Source: Bergeyella sp.
GTDB taxonomy: Bacteria > Bacteroidota > Bacteroidia > Flavobacteriales > Weeksellaceae
NCBI GenBank assembly: GCA_030263285.1
Contig: SZYB01000001.1
Coordinates: forward strand, 680,911-744,910
Length of the DNA stretch: 64,000 bases
Direction: 5' to 3'
Part shown: piece after piece, positions 5,918 to 56,453 of the stretch
Layout of the letters: each line of letters starts with the position of its first letter
Numbering within the stretch: the first letter of the stretch is position 1
Notes under the pieces: model-generated
What the model saw: only the letters and a program-made list of their open reading frames with translations
What the model was told of the DNA's origin: nothing
The model's database searches: none
Position numbers and translations under genes: made by a program

Positions 5918-8900
5918 TTACGAATCATGAGAAACTTTGTTGTAGTCTTCCCGCATCAGTGCATCATAATCCTTCTTATAGACTCCCAGAAATCTTTCTT
6001 CAAAACCCACCATGATTGCATACACCACGGGGACTATTACCAAAGTAAGAAGCAAAGAAGAGATAAGCCCACCGATAATTACAATAGCCAAACCCTGATT
6101 CATGGATGAAGCTTCTCCACTCGCCATGGCAATGGGAATCATACCAAAAACCATGGCTACGGTAGTCATAAGAATAGGTCTTAGTCTAGAGTGATTGGCC
6201 TGTATAAGGGCATCAAAAGTGCTCTCTCCTTCCTTTTTTCTTTGGTTGGCATAATCCACCAAGAGAATAGCATTTTTGGCCACTAATCCCACAAGCATGA
6301 TCATACCGAGAATCGTAAATATATTTAAACTTTTATCCGTAAGAGCAAGTCCCCAAAAGGCACCAATAAATGATAGAGGAATAGAAAACATGACAACAAA
6401 AGGTCTCAAAAAGTCATCATAAAGAATTACCATAATCATATAAACCAAAATCAATGCAGCGAGTAAAGCCACACCGAGAGTACCAAATCCTTCTTCCTGA
6501 TTACTGAGATTACCGCTCCATTCCCACTCTACTCCCGCAGGCTTCTTGATTTTCTCAAGTTTTTTTGTCCATTCGCCGGCTACTTCTCCTGCAGTTTTGC
6601 CGACAGTCTGAGACTTAACCGTAACAGACGGTGATCTGTTGGTCCGTTCAAGAACAGAAGCACCGGAGCTGTATTTAACCTCCGCAAACTGAGACAATTT
6701 TATTTCCTGACCACTTGCATTGAGAAAAGCTACATTTCTTACATCATCAATATCTGCTCTAAATGCATCATCCAAAATAATATTGATATCGTACTCTCGA
6801 TTCCCCGTACGGAATTTGCTGTCCGTGTTCCCACTAAAAGCCGTTCTCAGAGTTTGTCCTACGATAGCTACGTTAAGACCAAGAGAAGTCATCCTATCCC
6901 TATCTACAGAAATAGAAATTTCTGGACTTCCGTCCTTTACACTTAGGTCTACTTGGTTTGAACCTTCTACAGACTTCAGCAATCTCTCAGCCTCTTTTGC
7001 ATACTTCATCGCATCCTCCAAACTATTGCCCGTCACTACCATTTGTATGGCCGCCTCTTCTGCCCCCATAATCCCTATAGGAATGGTGTTAATCTTTACA
7101 CCTATGAGCTCTTTTTCCAAACTGCGTTTTAGCTTGGCTGCAAATACTTTGGCAGTCTCTTTTCTTTTAGACTTATCTATGAGTTCCACACTGATCTCCG
7201 ACTTATATGCTGTAGATTGAGTGGCAACCATCCCACTGCTTGTTTGTCCCACGCTAGCGATAGTAGACTCTACTTCTGGGTATTTTGTAATAAAGCGTTC
7301 AGCTTTTTGGGTGGCAAAATTGGTTTGCTCCAGAGATGCATCTTTATTGAGTTCTAATTGTACCATGAACTTTCCTCTATCCGATGCCGGAAAAAAATCA
7401 CTTCCTATAAAGCCCAACCTAACAAGTAAAAAGGAAGAGAGAAACAAAATTAATGCGACGATTAAAGTGACAAACTTATTCTTCAGACACCACAGAAGAA
7501 GATCGCTTATCCACAGAGTAAAACGATCTAACAAATGTTCAAAACCAAAAATTATTTTTCCTATAAAAGAATCTTTGCTGATCGGCTCCAGTTTTCCGAA
7601 TCTGGAATACAGCCAGGGAACTGCGGTAAAGGAAACAAGGAGAGAAAACAGCGTGGAAATAATAACCACCACACAGAACTGCTTGATAATATTGGCTACC
7701 AGTCCCGTACTTATAGCAATGGGGAGAAACACCACTACGATCACCATCGTGATGGCCGTCACGGTAAACCCTATTTCCGAAGCTCCATCATAAGCGGCCC
7801 TTACTTTACCTTTTCCCATCTCCAGGTGTCTGTGCATATTTTCTATAACCACTATAGCATCGTCCACCAAAATACCAACGACCAGAGAAAGCGCCAGAAG
7901 ACTCATCAGGTTTAAACTAAAACCAAATACAAGTATCCCGATAAAAGTTGCGATAAGTGAGGATGGGATGGATACCATCACAATGAGTGCATTTCTAAGG
8001 CTATGCAAGAAAAAAAGCATCACAAAAGCTACCAAAAGCACTGCTAAAAACAAATCGTGAATTACTGCGTCTGCTGCCTCCAGAGTAAATATACTACTGT
8101 CATCTGCCAGATTAAATAAAACATGATCTGAAGAAAATTGTTTTTCCAGATCTTTTATTTTTACTTTCACCCCCTTACTCACCTCTACTGCATTGGCATC
8201 AGACTGTTTTTGTATTTGCAGTAAGAGCGTACTTTTTTGATCTATTCTGGCAATTTTTTCTACCTCTTTCTCGGTGTCCTGCACATCTGCGACATCCGAT
8301 AGTTTTATGTTTACGCCATTTTTTGAAGCAAGGGTCAAATTTCTTAATTGTCCTACAGAAGAGATATTTCCGGAAAGACGGATAAGCGTGGTGTTGTCCC
8401 TTGTCTTCAGGTTTCCTGTAGGAAAATCCATATTGGAGCTCGCAATGATCTGTTGTACCTGCGGAATCGAAAGTCCGTACGCCATTACTTTATTGGGATC
8501 CAGACTTACCCTAATTTCTCTCTCCTGCCCTCCGATAACGCTCACAGAAGCCACTCCATGAATTCTGGAAAATGTGGGTTTTATCTTTTGGTCTACTACG
8601 TCATAGAGCTGAGTTTCGGAGAGACCAGCCGTGACGCCGATGGTTATAATAGGTAGGTCTGATAAAGAAAATTTGGACAAAGAAGGCTCCTTAGCATCTG
8701 TAGGCAAATCGGAACGTATAGCATTTATTCTTCTCTGTGCATCATTAAGCGCATAATCTATATCTGCCTGACTGTCAAATTCTATAATTACAACAGACAA
8801 ACTCTCATAAGATCGGGACTGTATCTTTTTTATATTCTCCAGAGAAGATACTGCATCCTCCACCTTTTTTGTGAGGGTATTTTCTACTTCCGCAGGAGAT

Positions 8901-32727: not shown

Positions 32728-33192
32728 TCAATACAAAAATATTTTTGTTTCGTCTTTTACCACAGAGAGCACGATGGCACTGTGGTACTGCCCTATATTG
32801 GGAATATTAGCCACGATATGCGTCATAAAATTGTTGTAGTCGCGAATATCCTTTGCCACCACTTTTATCATATAGTCATAGGTTCCAGACAGGCTTACCA
32901 CTTCCAACACTTGAGGTTCTGCCTTAATGAGGGTTTCAAACTCAAGGAGCTTCTTCTCAGACTGCTCTTTCAGCACAATATTGCAATAGGACATAACAGG
33001 ATAACCTACCGCTTCTCTGTCTACTATAACTACATTTTTTAGGATAACGTGATTCTGTTTCAGATACTTTATTCTCTCGTAGGTTGGGGTGAAAGAAAGC
33101 CCCACACGCTCTGCCATTTCTTTTACCGTAACGGTGGCATCTTCTTGTAGTATATTGAGTATTTTGCAATCTACTGTGTCAAGTGGCTTCAT
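32728..33192 (-). CDS. Lrp/AsnC-family transcriptional regulator
   Basis: A 154-residue feast/famine regulator: an N-terminal winged helix ('DTVDCKILNILQEDATVTVK' leading into 'EMAERVGLSFTPTYERIKYL') and a C-terminal RAM domain ('VLEVVSLSGTYDYMIKVVA', 'NIGQYHSAIVLSVVKDETKI'). Its start codon lies 14 bases inside argH, so it is translationally coupled to the arginine operon as its last gene. That suggests it senses arginine or another amino acid and controls this operon or related genes. Ligand and targets are inferred, not visible. Confidence 0.9.
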   Translation of the reverse strand: MKPLDTVDCKILNILQEDATVTVKEMAERVGLSFTPTYERIKYLKQNHVILKNVVIVDREAVGYPVMSYCNIVLKEQSEKKLLEFETLIKAEPQVLEVVSLSGTYDYMIKVVAKDIRDYNNFMTHIVANIPNIGQYHSAIVLSVVKDETKIFLY

Positions 33193-34498
33193 AAAACCGA
33201 GTATAAAGTTGCGTAAATCGATCTTTTATCTGCTGTAACGAGAGGTTTCCTATGCTGCCCACATGCGTATGTTTTAGGTTCCTTCTCTCATAGCTGTACG
33301 TCCCGTCCTCTATAGAATTCCCTACTTCGAGATAGGCATCACGAAAACCTTTTCCCTGCCTCACCAAATCATTTATTTTCTCAACACTGAAGAGGTAATC
33401 ATATTTTGGATCCTCCAGTATATGGAGATTCACCTCCATGTGAGGAAGCATAAAACACAAAATCTGAAGAGAATCTTTCATATCCTCCAGCGCAGGAAAA
33501 ATAATTTCTTTAGTGAGTTGATAATCTCTGTTATAACCTGTAGAAAGGTTGTTTATAAGCAAAGTCAATTCATTGGGTACCGCCTGTATTCTAGATGATT
33601 TTCCTCTTATAAGTTCAAATACATCGGGGTTTCTTTTGTGAGGCATAATACTGCTGCCCGTAGTAAGATGGATAGGAAAAGACAAAAATCCGAAATTCTG
33701 GTTGGAATAAAGACATATGTCATTCGACAGTTTTCCTATGCTTGAAGCTATGGACGAAAGAGCGAAAGATAAAAATTTTTCTGTTTTTCCTCTGGTCATC
33801 TGTGCATAGATAGAATTTACATTGAGTGCTTTAAACCCCAATTCTTTTGTAGTATACTCTCGATCAAGCGGAAAAGAAGATCCATATCCTGCTCCACTCC
33901 CCAGCGGATTTTTGCTTGCAGAAGAATAGGCAACCAAAAGCAATTCCATATCCTCGGAGAGTGACTCTGCATAGGCGCTTAACCACAAACCAAAAGAGGA
34001 AGGCATCGCAATCTGATAATGCGTATACCCCGGCATCAGCACCTCTTGGTATTTTTCTGCAAGAGAGATCAGTTCTTCAAAAAGTTCCTTTATCCTCTCT
34101 GCAATCCGCGGAATTTCGTAACGAAAAAAAAGCTTTATATCCAGAAGGACCTGATCATTTCTAGAACGTCCGGTGTGTATTTTTTTACCCGCCTTTCCTA
34201 ATTTTCTCGTAAGGTTAAACTCTATTTGACTATGAATATCCTCCACTCCCTCGTCAATCGACAAATTATTTTTCTCGGCAAGACACAACATTTTATCCAG
34301 CTCCTTTTGTATCTCTTCGTTTTCTTTTTGAGTTAATATCCCTATTTCAAAGAGCATAGAGGCATGCGCTTTGTTTCCCAATACGTCATATTTCGCTAAA
34401 AGTAGATCAAAATCTCTGTCCTTACCTACAGTAAATTTTTCTATAAGTTTTTCATAAGTTTCTGAACCAGAGTTTTTTGCCCAAATTTTGCTATTCAT
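33179..34498 (-). CDS. argH: Argininosuccinate lyase
   Basis: Splits argininosuccinate into arginine and fumarate. 439 residues with 'EDIHSQIEFNLTRKLG', 'GRSRNDQVLLDIKLFF' and 'MPGYTHYQIAMPSSFGLW', and the fumarase-superfamily signature 'GSSIMPHKRNPDVFELIRG' (about residues 276-294) with the catalytic Ser loop. Seventh gene of the arginine operon, overlapping argE by eight bases upstream and the regulator gene by 14 downstream. Confidence 0.95.
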   Translation of the reverse strand: MNSKIWAKNSGSETYEKLIEKFTVGKDRDFDLLLAKYDVLGNKAHASMLFEIGILTQKENEEIQKELDKMLCLAEKNNLSIDEGVEDIHSQIEFNLTRKLGKAGKKIHTGRSRNDQVLLDIKLFFRYEIPRIAERIKELFEELISLAEKYQEVLMPGYTHYQIAMPSSFGLWLSAYAESLSEDMELLLVAYSSASKNPLGSGAGYGSSFPLDREYTTKELGFKALNVNSIYAQMTRGKTEKFLSFALSSIASSIGKLSNDICLYSNQNFGFLSFPIHLTTGSSIMPHKRNPDVFELIRGKSSRIQAVPNELTLLINNLSTGYNRDYQLTKEIIFPALEDMKDSLQILCFMLPHMEVNLHILEDPKYDYLFSVEKINDLVRQGKGFRDAYLEVGNSIEDGTYSYERRNLKHTHVGSIGNLSLQQIKDRFTQLYTRFYEAT

Positions 34499-35558
34499 TA
34501 TCTAAAAGTACACGGGATAAAATACGAATATATTTTGAAATTCCTTCCTCCAGTTCCCGAAGGTAAACAAATTCATCCGCAGTGTGAGACCGAAGAGAGT
34601 CTCCTATACCTATCTTTACAGAATCAAAAGGAATAAGTGCCTGATCCGAAATGGTGGGGGAACCGTATAAACGACAATTTTCTCTTTTGGCCGCTAAAAC
34701 TATGGGGTGGTCAAGCGAAATTTTCGAAGAGTTTAACCGTAAAGATTTCGGAGAAACTTCAGAATCCAGAAGGGCGTCAAAAGTATCCAGAATTTCTTGA
34801 TTAGAATAGTGCTCATTCGTCCTTACATCAATGGTAAAATCGCAATGATCCGGCACTACGTTGTGTAGGCTCCCCGCTTGTATGACCGTTACAGTAGCTT
34901 TTACCTTCCCCAAAACCTCAGAAATTCTGTCAAAAGTATAGTGTTCTACTTTTTTTATGTCCTCTATTGCCTTATAAATTGCGTGATTTTCGTTGGGATG
35001 TGCTGCATGAGAAGCTCTGCCTTTGGCTCTGCAATGAAGCACCACAAGACCCTTCTCGGCTATGGCGAGCTGCATCTCGGTAGGCTCTCCCACTATAGCA
35101 AAAGAAAGAACACCCAGACCAGGTAAAATACTCCCTATCCCGTTTTCACCGGATATTTCTTCCTCTGCAGTAGCCGCATAGATGAGATTATAATTGAGCT
35201 TCTTATCATAAAAATATAAAAAACCTGCCAAAAGCCCTACCAGAGACGCCCCCGCATCATTGCTTCCCAAACCATACAGTTTTCCTTCCCTTTCAGTAGG
35301 GATGAAAGGGTCTAACGTATAAGAAGAATTGGGCGGAACGGTATCATGATGCGAATTAAGCAAAATAGTAGGTAGCGAGGAATCAAAAAACAAATTACTC
35401 GCCCAAACGTTATTTCCCTTTCTTTCGTAAGGAATATTTTTTGACTTAATATAATCTGCAATGAGCCGTGCGGTTCCCTCTTCTTGTTTGCTTAAAGAGG
35501 GAGTCTGTATAAGTCTTTTCAGCAGATCTTTTGCTTCTTGTGTAAGGGTCGTTATCAC
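34491..35558 (-). CDS. argE: N-acylornithine deacylase (M20 peptidase family)
   Basis: A 355-residue zinc hydrolase that removes the acyl group after carbamoylation (from N-acylcitrulline) in this type of pathway. M20 ligands: 'LLNSHHDTVPP' (about residues 66-76), 'GLGSNDAGASLVGLL', 'ATAEEEISGENGIGS' and 'AIVGEPTEMQLAIAEKG'. The absence of argJ in the cluster means acyl groups are not recycled, so a separate N-acylglutamate synthase is required. Deacylation of acetyl versus succinyl substrate cannot be decided here. Confidence 0.88.
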   Translation of the reverse strand: MITTLTQEAKDLLKRLIQTPSLSKQEEGTARLIADYIKSKNIPYERKGNNVWASNLFFDSSLPTILLNSHHDTVPPNSSYTLDPFIPTEREGKLYGLGSNDAGASLVGLLAGFLYFYDKKLNYNLIYAATAEEEISGENGIGSILPGLGVLSFAIVGEPTEMQLAIAEKGLVVLHCRAKGRASHAAHPNENHAIYKAIEDIKKVEHYTFDRISEVLGKVKATVTVIQAGSLHNVVPDHCDFTIDVRTNEHYSNQEILDTFDALLDSEVSPKSLRLNSSKISLDHPIVLAAKRENCRLYGSPTISDQALIPFDSVKIGIGDSLRSHTADEFVYLRELEEGISKYIRILSRVLLDNE

Positions 35559-36344
35559 TTATATGACAATTTCTGTTCCTGTCTTCTTTCCCATAAATAC
35601 CTTTGAAAGTTCTCCACTATGAACAATCCTAACTTCTTCTACCGGAGAAGAAACAGCCGCAAACGCATTATCGAGTTTTGGGATCATCCCACCTGCAATT
35701 TGTCTTGTGCTTTTCATTTCCTCAAAATCTTTACTAAAAATAACTTCAATGGTAGAGTTCTCATCCATAACGTCCCTAAGCACACCATTTTTTTCGAAAC
35801 AATAGATAAGATGTACCCGATAGTCGTGAGAAAGCGATTGAGCTATTTCGCAAGCCATGGTATCGGCATTCGTATTAAGCAAATCACCTTCTCCGTTCAT
35901 ACTGATGGAACAAACAACCGGAATAAGTTTTTTATCTATGATGGATACAAAAAAAGAAGAATCAATGTTTTTTACCTCCCCCACTTCCCCATAATCTATA
36001 TGGGGATGCTTTCTTCTCTCCGAAATAATGCTTTGTGCATCGGCTCCACAAAGACCGATGGCTTTTGCTCCAAATTTTGAAAACAACGCTACTATTTTTT
36101 TATTTATAAGCCCTGCATAGACCATAGTACAAATATCCAAAGTTTCCGGAGGAGTAATACGTCTTCCCTCTATCATTTTTTGCTCAATTCCCAAACGAGA
36201 AGAGAGTTCTGTTACTTTTTTTCCGCCTCCATGTACCAATAAAATATTTTTTTTTGAGCCAATACAGGCAGAAATACACGCCTGCAAAGAAGAATTTTCA
36301 TCAAGGGTTTCTCCCCCTATTTTTATGACATACAATGTCTTCAT
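35559..36344 (-). CDS. argB: N-acylglutamate kinase
   Basis: Phosphorylates N-acylglutamate, step two of arginine synthesis. 261 residues of the amino-acid-kinase fold: 'LYVIKIGGETLDENSSLQ' with the catalytic Lys, 'ILLVHGGGKKVTELSSRLG' (residues 34-52), 'SISMNGEGDLLNTNADTMA' and 'RQIAGGMIPKLDNAFAA'. It abuts argF upstream and argE downstream with no spacer. There is no N-terminal arginine-sensing helix, so classic feedback inhibition of hexameric kinases is unlikely. Confidence 0.93.
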   Translation of the reverse strand: MKTLYVIKIGGETLDENSSLQACISACIGSKKNILLVHGGGKKVTELSSRLGIEQKMIEGRRITPPETLDICTMVYAGLINKKIVALFSKFGAKAIGLCGADAQSIISERRKHPHIDYGEVGEVKNIDSSFFVSIIDKKLIPVVCSISMNGEGDLLNTNADTMACEIAQSLSHDYRVHLIYCFEKNGVLRDVMDENSTIEVIFSKDFEEMKSTRQIAGGMIPKLDNAFAAVSSPVEEVRIVHSGELSKVFMGKKTGTEIVI

Positions 36345-37301
36345 CTACAGAGAATTTTCCAGCATTTTTTTCAGGATAGTCTGCATGGCCACGGTTCTGT
36401 TATAAGCCTGTCGATAAACCAAAGATCTAGCAGAATCCAGAACAGCATCACTCACCTCCACATTTCTTCTTACAGGGAGACAATGCATCCAATAAGTACC
36501 GGAATGAGAATACAAAAACTCCGCTCCGAGCAACCAATTTTCTTTCACTTTAGGCAAAGTTCCATACTCTTTGTACGATGACCAACTTTTGAAATAGACA
36601 TAATCTGCATTCTCCAATGCCTCCTCCTGATTATAAAATACCGGGGCGTTGCCTGTATATTTCGGAGCAAGGTCGTATCCTTTGGGATGTGCAATCACAA
36701 AATCAATATCCTTTACAGCATTCATCCATTCGGCAAAAGAATTCGCCACACAATGAGGCAAAGGCTTTATGTGAGGAGCCCAGCTCAAGACTACTTTGGG
36801 AGGATAAGGGAATTTCCATGTTTCTTTTATGGTAATAAGATCTGCAAAACTCTGCAAAGGGTGCCCGGTAGCAGATTCCAAAGAAATCACAGGAACCAAA
36901 GAATATTTTACAAAAGTATTGATCACCAGATCCAAATTATCTCTTTCTTTGTCCTTCAGACCGGGAAAACACCGTATCCCTATAATGTCACAATACTGGC
37001 TCAGTACTCTTGCGGCATCCTTTATGTGTTCTGTAGCAGATCCGTTCATAACTGTATTTTCTTCAACATCCCATGTCCAGATCTCGGTTCCTAAATTTAT
37101 TACCTGTACCTGCATCCCCAGATTTTCGCCTGCTTTTATACTGCTCATTCTGGTTCTCAAACTGGGATTAAGGAAAACGAGACCCAAAGTTTTTCGCTTG
37201 CCCAAGTCTGAAAAAGCATATAAATCTTTTTTTAGCTCAAAAGCCTCATGAACAAGACTTTCCAGATCTTGTATATCATTTAGGGAGGTGAAATTTTTCA
37301 T
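36345..37301 (-). CDS. argF: N-acylornithine carbamoyltransferase (acetyl- or succinylornithine)
   Basis: Carbamoylates N-acylornithine rather than free ornithine, the arrangement of Bacteroidota and Xanthomonas. 318 residues: carbamoyl-phosphate loop 'VFLNPSLRTRMSSIKAG' (residues 42-58), 'GIRCFPGLKDKERDN', 'HPLQSFADLITI', and 'WMHCLPVRRNVEVSDAVLD'. In the enzymes from B. fragilis (succinyl) and X. campestris (acetyl) the residue before 'EH' in this loop, Pro90 or Glu92, sets specificity. Here 'NGSATEHIKDA' places Thr at position 90, neither of the two. Substrate is therefore open. Confidence 0.9.
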   Translation of the reverse strand: MKNFTSLNDIQDLESLVHEAFELKKDLYAFSDLGKRKTLGLVFLNPSLRTRMSSIKAGENLGMQVQVINLGTEIWTWDVEENTVMNGSATEHIKDAARVLSQYCDIIGIRCFPGLKDKERDNLDLVINTFVKYSLVPVISLESATGHPLQSFADLITIKETWKFPYPPKVVLSWAPHIKPLPHCVANSFAEWMNAVKDIDFVIAHPKGYDLAPKYTGNAPVFYNQEEALENADYVYFKSWSSYKEYGTLPKVKENWLLGAEFLYSHSGTYWMHCLPVRRNVEVSDAVLDSARSLVYRQAYNRTVAMQTILKKMLENSL

Positions 37302-37348
37302 TTTATATCAAATTTTTACTGCATAACATTCCTAACCTGTATCAAAAA

Positions 37349-38503
37349 TCATTCGGCGAACGGACTTCTTTCTCCAAGAATATGAGAAAGCGAAATAAGA
37401 AAATAATCTATTTCCTCCTCAGTAATGCCAAGCGGAGGCAACAGTCTTATGGTATGAGAATTTTTGGCACTGTCCACCAATATTTTATATTTTTCTCTCA
37501 AAAGTCTTGACACTCCAGAGGCAGAAAAATCAAAATCCAGGGCAATCATAAGCCCCCTGCCACGAATTTCTTTTATCTTCCGAAACTTAGTCAAAGAATC
37601 CAAAAGATACTGCCCTTTCTCATAAGACCGAACGATAAGGTTCTCACGCTCCATAACCTCCAATACCGCTAATGCAGCAGAACAGGCGAGATGATTCCCC
37701 CCGAAGGTGGTCCCCAACATTTTTTTCCGAGCCTCTATGTGAGAGGAAAATAGGACTCCACCTATGGGAAAACCATTGCCCATACCCTTTGCCACAGTGA
37801 TAATATCCGGACGCACCTCAAAATATTGATGGGCAAAAAACTTTCCCGTTCTTCCATACCCCGACTGAATCTCATCGCAAATAAAAAACACACCCAACTC
37901 CCTACAAAGCTGCTCTATCCTTTTTATAAAATCTTTACTCGGGATATGAATACCCCCTATCCCCTGAATACCTTCTGTAATCACCCCTGCTAAGTCCTCT
38001 TTATTTCTATAAAACAGAGTTTCGAAAGTCTCAATATCATTGAATGGGCAAAAAACAAAATTTTCTGAAACGTTGACGGGCGCAATGATGGAAGGGTCAT
38101 CCGTAGCCGCTACACTGGCCGATGTTCTTCCGTGAAAGGAATTCCTGAAGGAAATAAACTTTTTTTTTCCAGACAAAAAAGAGGCCGTTTTAAATGCATT
38201 TTCGTTGGCTTCAGCCCCTGAGTTTACAAGAAAAAGACTATAATCTCCGTATCCCGAGAGCTTCCCCAACTTTTCGGCCAATTTTTCCTGTAGAGGATTT
38301 ATGACAGCATTGGAATAAAATCCTATTTTTTCGAGCTGACTTTTTATGGCCTGTACATAGGCAGAATGAGAATGCCCAATAGAGATAACCGCATGCCCGC
38401 CGTAAAAATCCAAATATTCTTCTCCCTTATCATCCCAAAGCCTGCTCCCCATCGCCTTTTCAATGGAGAGAGGCAAGAGCGGATATACATCAAATAATTT
38501 CAT
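37349..38503 (-). CDS. argD: N-acylornithine aminotransferase
   Basis: A 384-residue class III PLP aminotransferase converting N-acylglutamate semialdehyde to N-acylornithine. Visible: 'YLDFYGGHAVISIGHSH', 'LFLVNSGAEANENAFKTASF' (phosphate-binding S-G-A-E-A), 'FFICDEIQSGYGRTGKFFA' with the PLP-ring Asp, and the Schiff-base Lys in 'IITVAKGMGNGFPIGGVLF'. Normal length, in order between argC (four bases upstream) and argF. Confidence 0.93.
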   Translation of the reverse strand: MKLFDVYPLLPLSIEKAMGSRLWDDKGEEYLDFYGGHAVISIGHSHSAYVQAIKSQLEKIGFYSNAVINPLQEKLAEKLGKLSGYGDYSLFLVNSGAEANENAFKTASFLSGKKKFISFRNSFHGRTSASVAATDDPSIIAPVNVSENFVFCPFNDIETFETLFYRNKEDLAGVITEGIQGIGGIHIPSKDFIKRIEQLCRELGVFFICDEIQSGYGRTGKFFAHQYFEVRPDIITVAKGMGNGFPIGGVLFSSHIEARKKMLGTTFGGNHLACSAALAVLEVMERENLIVRSYEKGQYLLDSLTKFRKIKEIRGRGLMIALDFDFSASGVSRLLREKYKILVDSAKNSHTIRLLPPLGITEEEIDYFLISLSHILGERSPFAE

Positions 38504-38507
38504 TTTT

Positions 38508-39491
38508 TTAAAAAACAGAAGATTTTAGGTTAAGTCCGGATTTTTCTTCCAGGCCAAAAATGAGATTCATATTCTGCACCGCCTGCCCGGAGGCTCCCTT
38601 CAAAAGGTTATCAATAGCCACATGTACCGCTACTTTCTCCCCTGCTTTTTCTATATAAATAAGCGCCTTGTTGGTATTTATCACCTGTTTTAAATCTATG
38701 GGACCTGCAGAAACGAAAACAAATTTTGAATATTTATACGTGTACTTATAGATTTCATTGAGTTCTGCAAGATTTTTTTTGGCGGAAAAGGTAAGCGAGA
38801 CAAAAATCCCGCGGGTAAAATCTCCCCGCCAAGGAACAAAATTTATCTTTGTGGCAATCTCAGACATTTTTGAGACATTTTTTTCTATTTCCGCCATATG
38901 TTGATGCGTAAAAGTTTTATAGGGAGAAATATTATTATTCCTCCAATTAAAATGTGAAGTCTGATGCAGAGCCTTCCCTGCCCCCGTAGCTCCGGTAATC
39001 CCCACCCCGGAGATCTCCTCTATCTTTTCCTCTCCTAATACAGGCAAAATCCCTAACTGAATGGCAGTGGCAAAACATCCCGGATTTGCGATATAAGAAG
39101 ACTTCATGATCTTTTCTTTATTGAACTCACAAAGTCCGTAAACAAATTTTTTATCATGCCACTTCTCATCCACCCTAAAGTCATTTCCCAGATCAATAAT
39201 CTTTACCTTATCAGAAATTCTTTTTTCATTGTCTCTCAGCCAGTTCTTACTCTCTCCGTGAGGCAAACAAAGGAAAATCACATCGCAGGACTGAGCCCAT
39301 TCCTGAAACTTGAGATCCGTATCCCCTACAAGATCCCTGTGTACTTCCGATACCGAAGTACCCTGCAAACTTTGACTCGTAACAAAAATTATCTCTACAA
39401 AAGGATGATAAAGCAAAATCCTTATCAACTCTCCTGCCGTATAGCCTGTACCTCCTACAATGCCTGCTTTTATGAGTTTTTGAGAATGCAT
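38508..39491 (-). CDS. argC: N-acyl-gamma-glutamyl-phosphate reductase
   Basis: NADPH-dependent reduction of N-acylglutamyl phosphate to the semialdehyde. 327 residues, Rossmann start 'KAGIVGGTGYTAGELIRILL' (residues 7-26), the nucleophilic Cys in 'SYIANPGCFATAIQLGILP' (about residue 140) and 'GVGITGATGAGKALHQTSHF'. The Cys signature and the full C-terminal domain are intact. Follows argG after 25 bases. Confidence 0.94.
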   Translation of the reverse strand: MHSQKLIKAGIVGGTGYTAGELIRILLYHPFVEIIFVTSQSLQGTSVSEVHRDLVGDTDLKFQEWAQSCDVIFLCLPHGESKNWLRDNEKRISDKVKIIDLGNDFRVDEKWHDKKFVYGLCEFNKEKIMKSSYIANPGCFATAIQLGILPVLGEEKIEEISGVGITGATGAGKALHQTSHFNWRNNNISPYKTFTHQHMAEIEKNVSKMSEIATKINFVPWRGDFTRGIFVSLTFSAKKNLAELNEIYKYTYKYSKFVFVSAGPIDLKQVINTNKALIYIEKAGEKVAVHVAIDNLLKGASGQAVQNMNLIFGLEEKSGLNLKSSVF

Positions 39492-39516
39492 GTTTCTTTT
39501 GTTTTGCCAAAATAAA

Positions 39517-40707
39517 TTAATACTCCTGATGTACCTGATGATAAATACTCAATGCGTTAGAATAAATTTTTGAAAAACCTTTTACATCCGCCTCCGTCCA
39601 AGTGGCATTTTCCTCGCCATACTTACCAAATTTGGAAGACATAAGATCATGGGGAGAACTTATCCCAATAAGTATAAAATGATAGGGATATAGTTCTACC
39701 TTTACCTCACCAGAGACCTTCTCTTGAGTAGAAACAAAAAAAGATTCCAGATTTTTCATGACGGGATCCAGAGCCCAGCCATCATGCAAATAGTTTCCGT
39801 AGAAAATACTAAGCTGATCTTTTATAATCAACTGATTTTTTGTAAGAGTGTGTTTCTCAAGAAGATGATGGGCTTTTATGATGATCAGGGGAGCAGCCGC
39901 CTCAAAACTCACTCTTCCTTTTATCCCTATGATCGTATCCCCCACATGAGTATCCCTCCCGATACCAAAAGGCTGAGCAATCTCCTCAACCTGCCGTATT
40001 GCCTGTACGGGATGAGAATATTTTTTACCGTTTACGGAAGACAAATTCCCTTTGTCAAACCCTAAAGTCATGAGTTCCGGATCTGTTTTGCTCACCGGGG
40101 TAGGATATGCAGACTCCGGGAGGCTCTCGTTTGAAGTAAGAGTCTCTTTTCCTCCTATGGAAGTTCCCCACAATCCTTTATTGATAGAATACCGAGATTT
40201 TTCAAAATCTACCTCTACCTGATTTTTTGCAAGATAATCCCTCTCTTCTTTTCTGGAAAGTTTCAGATCTCGTATGGGTGTAATCACCTCTATGTGAGGA
40301 AGCAAAACTCTAAAAACAGCATCAAACCGAACCTGATCGTTTCCTGCTGCCGTACTTCCATGCGCAACATATTTTGCTCCTATTTCTTTCGCATAATGAG
40401 CAATGGCGGTTGCCTGAAACACTCTCTCTGAACTTACCGAAAGAGGATAGGTATTATTTTTCAAAACATTGGCATAAATGAGATACCGTATACAGTCTTC
40501 GTAGTACCTCTTTTCATCTTCTATTATCTTGAAAGTCTTCACACCGAGTCGGTAAGCTCTTTCCTCTGTTTTTTTTATTTCAAGAGGAGAAAATCCCCCC
40601 AAATTTACCATAACGGCATGCACTTCTAAATTTCTTTCTTTACTCAGCCATACTGCACAAAAAGAGGTATCCAAACCACCACTATAAGCTAAAACTACTT
40701 TTTCCAT
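39517..40707 (-). CDS. argG: Argininosuccinate synthase
   Basis: Joins citrulline and aspartate with ATP. 396 residues, PP-loop 'VVLAYSGGLDTSFCAVWL' at the N-terminus, 'YVAHGSTAAGNDQVRFDAVF' (citrulline and Asp binding, residues 112-131) and 'HDLMSSKFGKYGEENATW' near the C-terminus. Its first codons overlap the end of the GNAT gene by 13 bases, so the two are translationally coupled. Confidence 0.95.
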   Translation of the reverse strand: MEKVVLAYSGGLDTSFCAVWLSKERNLEVHAVMVNLGGFSPLEIKKTEERAYRLGVKTFKIIEDEKRYYEDCIRYLIYANVLKNNTYPLSVSSERVFQATAIAHYAKEIGAKYVAHGSTAAGNDQVRFDAVFRVLLPHIEVITPIRDLKLSRKEERDYLAKNQVEVDFEKSRYSINKGLWGTSIGGKETLTSNESLPESAYPTPVSKTDPELMTLGFDKGNLSSVNGKKYSHPVQAIRQVEEIAQPFGIGRDTHVGDTIIGIKGRVSFEAAAPLIIIKAHHLLEKHTLTKNQLIIKDQLSIFYGNYLHDGWALDPVMKNLESFFVSTQEKVSGEVKVELYPYHFILIGISSPHDLMSSKFGKYGEENATWTEADVKGFSKIYSNALSIYHQVHQEY

Positions 40708-41321
40708 AAGAGTCTTTTTATTTTGTCTAATTTTGAAAAAAATCTTGCATTACCCGACCTTAAGCTTTCATTTCTCCCCAATTCAGGATCAAAAAGCATG
40801 GCAGTACACATACAGTTTTTTTTGTTCTTGCTCATAAGTATGTCATAGTTTACACAAGTCTTACATCCTTGCCAAAACACTTCATCTTGTGTGAGTTCCG
40901 AGTACGTAACCGGGACATATCCCAGCTTGCTATTGATTTTCATCACGGCAAGGCCTGTCGTAAGACCAAATATTTTTGCCTTGGGAAAATATTTTCTAGA
41001 ATGAGAAAATGTCTTTTCCTTAATAAGAGAAGCGAGACCAGAATTTCTGTATTTTCTGGAAACGATAAGACCAGAATTGGCTACATACTCCTTATCATCC
41101 CATATCTCTATATAGCAAAACCCAGCCCACTCTCCATTACCAGATGTGGCAATTATCACCTTATTTTCAGAAATTTTTTCCCTTATGTATGCCGCCGTTC
41201 TTCTCGCAATGCCCGTACCCCTCTCCTTTGCCGAAATCTCCATCTCCCGCAATATATCGGGTATATGCCGAGCATCCTCCTCACTCGCAATACCCACATT
41301 AAAACTCAAACCATTTTTCAA
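40695..41321 (-). CDS. GNAT acetyltransferase heading the arginine operon, candidate N-acylglutamate synthase
   Basis: A GNAT protein of about 208 residues. The acyl-CoA-binding motif is 'NSGLIVSRKYRNSGLASLIK' (R-x-x-G-L-A). A C-terminal block is Cys-rich: 'WQGCKTCVNYDIL' and 'KKNCMCTAMLFDP', four Cys in two C-x-x-C/C-x-C pairs, possibly a metal site. As first gene of an operon lacking argA and argJ, it is the natural candidate for N-acetyl- or N-succinylglutamate formation; this is inference. The frame is open to 41342, but a perfect -7 element covers 41342-41349, so translation must start downstream. I choose the TTG at 41321, giving a leader of about 16 bases; TTG at 41309 is an alternative. 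Confidence 0.78.
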   Translation of the reverse strand: MKNGLSFNVGIASEEDARHIPDILREMEISAKERGTGIARRTAAYIREKISENKVIIATSGNGEWAGFCYIEIWDDKEYVANSGLIVSRKYRNSGLASLIKEKTFSHSRKYFPKAKIFGLTTGLAVMKINSKLGYVPVTYSELTQDEVFWQGCKTCVNYDILMSKNKKNCMCTAMLFDPELGRNESLRSGNARFFSKLDKIKRLLWKK

Positions 41322-41341
41322 TTTTAATCTAAAATATTTCA

Positions 41342-41349
41342 CAAATATA
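41342..41349 (-). promoter_or_regulatory. -7 promoter element of the arginine operon
   Basis: Minus-strand TATATTTG, perfect TAnnTTTG. It is the only promoter-like site I see before the closely spaced eight-gene block, and it decides the start of the GNAT gene. Confidence 0.6.
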
Positions 41350-41639
41350 GATTTTTTATCCTTAAAAAATTCTTTTGTAAGATTTTATTTTTTTAATCCA
41401 AGATTATTGTGATAACGAATTGTGCAAGTTATTTTTTCATATAGTGTAGAAGATGTTATCAAATACGGTATCTAAAGCAAATACTTGATACACCAATCCG
41501 AAGCAGAAATAGAGAATGAGGATAATATTATGGTGAAAATTAGAGGAACTTAAGTGATAGAGAAATGAACAAATACCCTTAAAAAAACAAAGACAGTTCG
41601 GGTTTATACGGAAAAGTAAACTGCTATTTTCCTATCCAC
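41350..41639 (+). other. Gap upstream of the arginine operon
   Basis: About 290 AT-rich bases between the operon promoter and the decayed aspartokinase. No gene or clear operator repeat is visible; any Lrp-type binding site should lie in its left part. Confidence 0.4.
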
Positions 41640-42664
41640 TGTAGATGGGTAAGCTAGATAACACAACTCGTTAAGAACCACTATCTTATCATGAATATTT
41701 ACCAGCAGAGAAATATTATCGGGACTTCCGCCCCTAAAAGATCATTTTTTATTTCATGGTTTTCCAGAACCTTAGAAATAAATACTATTGATGTTCTTTT
41801 GTCTGGATATCTCATACCCTATCAAACAGATGATGCTCTGCTCTCCGAATACCGAAACCTCAAGTTCTTTTACCCTATTCTCCAAAAACTGGGCATCATC
41901 TATAGCCACAGAGACTACCATCTCTAAAGTTGTAATCATGTTTATGAAGATTTTAAACTCAGAAAATATCCTGAAAATAAATTCTAAAAAACCTTGGGTC
42001 TGCAACATTCTCTCAAAATGATGCTTAGCATCTTGATCCCATCTTTAGTGGCAACCGCCTTCCCCCTCTTCAAAAGACAAGGCAAAAACTCCAGAAACGT
42101 GAAAGACATAACAGAGATCATTATTATGATTATGGAAAGCATCAATATCTGTCCATATCTGGATATTTTCGCATGGACAGTCACTCCAATAGCCGCGTTG
42201 CAATCTGGTCCCCCGTTCGTTTACCCTCCCAAATTCTAACTTAGGAAAAGACGAACAGAAATCTTATTTTCTTGCAGAAACAGACCAAACAGAAGAGACC
42301 CCCTGTACAAGTAAAGCAGACAATAATTTCTTCCATGTCTTTTTTCTCCCAATTATTGGACCCTCTATTACCTGTACGTTTGCATGAGATAATCTCTTGC
42401 ACACCTCTTTATTATTTTCTCCCCCAGAATAATTGCCTGCTATGTCAAAAATATTTCTTTTCCAGATTCCGATAATCTCCCTTTGATTTCTAATTGATAT
42501 CCCACCAGAAAGCGCAAGGGAATGAAAAACCACCAAAAAATTTGTAGTACCTGGCATATAGCCAACAAAACCGCTATTTTCCTTTCTCCATCTACTATAT
42601 CAATACCCTCCCGCATGTTCTCCGAAGAACCCACGGAGTTACCCTCAAACTTCAGAATCTTCAT
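41640..42664 (-). pseudogene. Aspartokinase, multiply frameshifted and internally deleted pseudogene
   Basis: Pieces in correct order over about 1 kb. N-terminus 'MKILKFEGNSVGSSENMRE' (normally K-F-G-G-T-S-V-G-S), then after a frame change 'MPGTTNFLVVFHSLA' (the S-A-M-S-G-T-T-N block) and 'RNIFDIAGN'. Next come a degraded 'GGPDCNAAIG' and 'ENIQIWTDIDAFHN' followed by 'FALSFEEGE' (I-W-T-D-I-D-G and L-S-F-E-E-A). The ACT domains remain as 'MLQTQGFLEFIFRIFSE', 'MITTLEMVVSVAIDDAQFLE', 'EQSIICLIGYEI' and 'DNISLLVNIHDKIVVLNEL'. Stops and shifts lie between them, and roughly 100 residues of the kinase domain are missing. The first step to lysine, threonine, methionine and diaminopimelate is lost at this locus. 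Confidence 0.88.
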
Positions 42665-42720: not shown

Positions 42721-43089
42721 TTACCTCATGTTGATAATGCTGTCTACTACATAATTGGTGTTACCCCTCCACGGCAAAGCTCCGTGGTACTCTTTGTATC
42801 TGAGCTCAAAATACTTTCCGCCGTTTTGTTCCAATTTTTTGAAAATTTTTTCGTTCTCAATAGAAAACTCAAATTCATAACTCGTGAATGTGTTTCCTCT
42901 TTTAGAATTTCCCCCGAAACCCTGTTGGATAATTTTCCCTTCATAAGTTTTAAAAAAATTACCCTTATACACTGCATAATTGAGATCTCCGGCCTTGACC
43001 CCTTCCCCAAAAACATAAAAATACTTCCACCACACAAAACCAACCAGTCCCATAGTCAAAACAAAAACGGATATCCATACATATTTCAT
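42721..43089 (-). CDS. Small membrane-anchored protein of unknown function
   Basis: 122 residues with one N-terminal TM helix or signal anchor (YVWISVFVLTMGLVGFVWW) and an extracytoplasmic domain: 'FGEGVKAGDLNYAVYKGNFF', 'KTYEGKIIQQGFG', 'YFELRYKEYHGALPWRGNTN' and 'YVVDSIINM'. Flavobacterial homologues are widespread and often carry the label '6-phosphogluconate dehydrogenase', which is clearly an annotation error: there is no Rossmann fold or dehydrogenase motif. A perfect -7 element lies 28 bases upstream. The function is unknown. Confidence 0.78.
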   Translation of the reverse strand: MKYVWISVFVLTMGLVGFVWWKYFYVFGEGVKAGDLNYAVYKGNFFKTYEGKIIQQGFGGNSKRGNTFTSYEFEFSIENEKIFKKLEQNGGKYFELRYKEYHGALPWRGNTNYVVDSIINMR

Positions 43090-56177: not shown

Positions 56178-56453
56178 TTAAGATCTCCCTCCTTTAGTAG
56201 TCTTATTCTCCTCTGTAGTCGAGGCCTTGCCTTTAGCAGTTTTTTTGGCAGAAATCGTTGATTTGGTTGAGGCGGACTTAACCGCTGTTGCTTTCCCAAC
56301 TGCTGCTTTTGGCTTAACATCCTGATCGGAAGGCATTTCCGCCTCTTTGTTCCGAAAGACGAATAACGCCTTTGAGGCTTTCCTAGGTCTGGTCTTACCA
56401 TAACTCCCCGTTACTATCTTTCCTCTCTTGGTTTTTTTATCTCCTTTACCCAT
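56178..56453 (-). CDS. 30S ribosomal protein bTHX with long low-complexity tail
   Basis: The N-terminus 'MGKGDKKTKRGKIVTGSYGK' and 'TRPRKASKALF' is the bTHX (THX) signature, a small basic peptide that sits in the head of the 30S subunit. bTHX is usually 25-60 residues. Here the core is followed by about 50 residues rich in Ala, Lys, Ser and Thr (for example 'AAVGKATAVKSASTKSTISA'), giving 91 residues. Extended tails of this kind are found in flavobacterial homologues, but the length is variable and the role unknown. Confidence 0.85.
   Translation of the reverse strand: MGKGDKKTKRGKIVTGSYGKTRPRKASKALFVFRNKEAEMPSDQDVKPKAAVGKATAVKSASTKSTISAKKTAKGKASTTEENKTTKGGRS

Follow-up and report, generated by a model that had tools for sequence, protein, structure and literature searches.

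Does the short region between the arginine cluster and a small upstream gene, on the minus strand of the Bergeyella sp. stretch analysed here (64,000 nucleotides, hereafter the window), hold a dead aspartokinase gene, and if so, which aspartokinase was lost and at what cost to the cell? Our analysis indicates, with a probability of about 0.95, that it is an old pseudogene, completely inactivated, which derives from a third, monofunctional aspartokinase of the 'lysine-sensitive aspartokinase 3' type.

The aspartokinase relic and its lesions

The minus strand from 42664 to 41649 could be aligned over its full length to intact monofunctional aspartokinases (residues 1 to 433 of 433). In a frameshift-aware alignment with one of them, L047 (433 aa), the region scored 348 with approximately 45% identity (147 identities in 325 aligned codons), whereas 20 shuffles of the same DNA averaged 34 and never exceeded 49. 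A profile built from 17 intact orthologues gave a score of 178 for the C-terminal half, compared with 23 to 27 for 12 shuffles and 26 for the opposite strand, and a score of 81 for the N-terminal 44 residues, compared with a shuffle maximum of 27. The whole parent gene is thus represented above chance level, although in 1016 bp instead of the approximately 1299 bp of an intact gene. The aspartokinase peptides quoted in the first-pass annotation were all recovered, on the minus strand and in the order claimed, and its limits for the region (41640-42664) proved accurate to about 10 bases.

Three remnants can be recognized, all on the minus strand. The N-terminal one (42531-42664), located by the profile alignment, begins with MKILKFEGNSVGSSENM and is followed, after a +2 frame change, by MPGTTNFLV; in it, the catalytic, nucleotide-binding motif KFGG has been altered to KFEG. 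The catalytic-domain remnant (42064-42170) runs from ENIQIWTDIDAFHN to LSFEEG and, like the regulatory (ACT) remnant (41649-42032), was placed by both the profile and the frameshift-aware alignment. The latter remnant is further supported by a match to Pfam ACT_9 in the C-terminal part of the read-through (E = 3.3e-8).

The frameshift-aware path requires at least nine frame changes, near positions 42557, 42360, 42328, 42245, 42064, 42032, 41773, 41748 and 41738, the last three being clustered in the ACT remnant. Stop codons occur in all three minus frames across the relic (8, 18 and 32), and the longest open stretch has 111 codons. In addition, two blocks are missing, one of about 45 residues in region 155-200 and another of about 50 residues in region 250-299, the loss directly after LSFEEG removing about 50 residues (LAYFGAKILHP...). 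The frameshifts and stops reported for this gene were therefore confirmed, as was its dead state, but the single internal deletion reported with them has to be replaced by two. With no single open frame, KFEG in the place of KFGG and blocks of the core deleted, the relic cannot make an aspartokinase.

Could the gene be intact and its frameshifts be errors of sequencing or assembly? The assembly is a draft of 30 contigs, and single frameshifts could in principle arise in this way. At least nine of them within 1 kb are nevertheless difficult to reconcile with the neighboring arginine genes, which are open over 7.5 kb. Moreover, errors do not account for the absence of approximately 95 residues in two blocks, nor for the change of KFGG to KFEG, and the relic has a branch of 2.98 in the tree compared with 0.2 for its sister. 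Because of the two missing blocks, the changed catalytic glycine and the low identity, assembly error is inadequate as an explanation for the whole, and we consider it highly improbable.

A second alternative concerns the regulatory part, in which an ATG opens a stretch of 78 codons (~41772-42008) that keeps the first ACT region and might be expressed as a stand-alone ACT peptide, comparable to the small subunit of two-subunit aspartokinases. The next ACT half, however, is not in the same frame and has three frame changes, and partial decay of a gene is expected to leave open stretches of such length; no stand-alone form was seen in relatives. We thus give very little credence to such a peptide, and equally little to the idea that it would modulate the two remaining aspartokinases in trans.

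A 97-aa ORF within the relic (42264-42557, minus strand) starts at the methionine of MPGTTNFLV. It was rejected as a separate gene, since it lies inside the aspartokinase alignment path and has no NCBIfam match, and is best seen as a chance survivor.

The lost isozyme and those that remain

Assignment of the pseudogene to a class was based on single-protein scores from one run, in which the relic scored 272 to 452 against aspartokinases of 430-450 aa, 103 to 150 against the aspartokinase part of fused ThrA proteins and 71 to 95, the lowest values, against short LysC proteins (412-417 aa). The best NCBIfam match of the read-through was lysine-sensitive aspartokinase 3 (NF006570, E = 9e-26). Taken together with the ACT_9 match, these results indicate that the relic derives from a third isozyme of the AKIII type (a LysC-type class of about 433-440 aa), nearer to this class than to the other isozymes of the genome, and not from a broken thrA or lysC. 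On the single-protein scores, we also rejected the idea that the relic arose by partial duplication of thrA or lysC from this genome.

NF006570, which represents the E. coli LysC type, is also the best family of the closest intact orthologue (E = 5e-124), although this protein itself reaches only 415 bits, below the family cut-off of 455. The relic retains the domain order of the family, from the N-terminus to the ACT regions, but differs from it by the frame changes, the two deletions and the changed KFGG, such that no intact protein is possible. Going by the family name alone, the lost isozyme was probably lysine-sensitive. With ThrA (NF006959, fused aspartokinase/homoserine dehydrogenase I) the relic has the aspartokinase domain in common, but it is far less similar and lacks the dehydrogenase part. 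The second monofunctional LysC (about 412-417 aa), predicted by homology to have the same enzyme activity, belongs to a different and shorter class and is the least similar to the relic.

The first-pass annotation had left two options for the loss: either another isozyme, for example a fused ThrA, covers for it, or the cell depends on its host for these amino acids. The genome (1.68 Mb, 99.99% complete) speaks for the first of them. Away from the relic, it encodes an intact fused ThrA of 814 aa, which scores 990 bits where the curated cut-off is 726; ThrB and ThrC, both intact, come next in a thrABC cluster. It also encodes an intact second monofunctional LysC of 416 aa, a class that is likewise intact in most relatives examined. 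The genes asd, dapA, dapB and dapF, a gene for a LysA-type decarboxylase and a MetX-like gene are open as well. Of the genes named for a genome search, lysC/thrA, dapA, dapB, thrB and thrC were found. The MetX-like protein scores below the curated cut-off, as do those of all nine matching control genomes. The gene adjoining lysC reads as a putative fructose-bisphosphatase.

A small genome of 1.68 Mb would fit a host-associated life, in which loss of this gene might leave the cell reliant on its host or community to supply lysine, threonine and methionine. Such dependence is very unlikely here, given that ThrA, LysC, Asd, DapA, DapB, DapF, LysA, ThrB, ThrC and the MetX-like protein are all intact, the lysine steps covered being those up to tetrahydrodipicolinate and from diaminopimelate onward. 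Since the genome retains two other aspartokinase genes intact, along with the downstream genes tested, ordinary gene decay is the preferred reading, and the alarming view that lysine, threonine and methionine synthesis is broken by the dead gene can be corrected.

The decay of the third isozyme may be pictured as follows. The retention of ThrA and the second LysC would have relaxed selection on the third copy, this redundancy being what presumably permitted its loss; indels and two larger deletions destroyed it, leaving no enzyme now, and feedback control of the pathway would rest on the two remaining isozymes. The pseudogene of a dispensable isozyme is genuine but ordinary; searches of the literature yielded nothing specific. 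It is a clear case of a small genome that has dropped one isozyme and kept two intact ones, and a possible use would be in following how feedback in the aspartate pathway shifts upon loss of a probably lysine-sensitive isozyme.

Distribution and possible origin

Of 296 genomes from the same family, 40 have a match to the third isozyme; they belong to 5 of the 33 genera, and one of these matches is partial. Across the order, 35 of 395 genomes matched at the thresholds used, all relatives compared being from outside the genus of the relic. Most relatives thus manage without this isozyme.

The nearest intact relative found (score of 348) belongs to G015, a genome from another family of the order; the next best match scored 276 and the best from the same family 225. 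In the tree, the relic grouped with G015 with support of 99/98, and of 96/97 when the read-through was guided by a same-family copy. Forcing the relic into the main same-family group cost 13.8 log-likelihood units and was rejected by the AU test (p = 0.03). Since its nearest intact relative found is from another family, the gene may have arrived horizontally from such a family and decayed afterwards, instead of descending from an ancestral family copy. No synteny between the relic and intact copies was seen in the stretches fetched, which also favors an arrival of this kind. On the other hand, the relic branch is very long, its sister is a single sequence and the AU p value is no lower than 0.03. 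The isozyme has a patchy distribution across the order, and an identical pattern would be expected if most genomes had shed an old copy. Horizontal arrival, with odds that we place slightly short of even, is thus suggestive only, and either origin is compatible with the pseudogene.

In another genus of the family, locus L133 (G206:C78, ~7912-8508) carries an orthologue of the dead gene that can be recognized only from residue 243 onward, as a 199-codon frame near a contig end followed by a lysA-looking gene. It may be another instance of decay, or else result from the contig edge.

The arginine cluster and other neighbors

The relic is flanked by two intact genes on the same strand. Upstream lies a gene for a 122-aa protein with a hydrophobic N-terminus (42721-43089), which had no match in Pfam or NCBIfam. 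Downstream, a gene for a GNAT-type acetyltransferase (40695-41342, weak Pfam GNAT match) stands at the head of the arginine cluster and adjoins argG in all eight relatives examined. The cluster comprises, in this order, the acetyltransferase, argG, argC, an aminotransferase, a carbamoyltransferase, argB, an argE-like gene and argH; it occupies 33179-41342 of the window on the minus strand, and its gene order is kept in eight relatives of the family. The carbamoyltransferase has as its best NCBIfam match, under the cut-off, the N-acetylornithine carbamoyltransferase of the acetylated pathway.

No AKIII-class aspartokinase was seen beside the acetyltransferase and argG, either in the stretches retrieved for intact copies or in those surrounding the arginine clusters of relatives. 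The contrast between the dead gene and the intact arginine operon, at first described as striking, is not meaningful, because the relic represents a dispensable and patchy extra copy that, in the relatives examined, does not belong to the arginine cluster.

The segment that separates the relic from the acetyltransferase gene (41343-41648) is very AT-rich, with 28% G+C compared with 39% for the window, and may contain the promoter of the arginine cluster. Elsewhere in the window, a minus-strand frame at ~56178-56453 starts like the ribosomal protein bTHX (MGKGDKKTKRGKIVTGSYGKTRPRK), a likeness recognized by eye only, and continues into a long lysine/alanine-rich tail.
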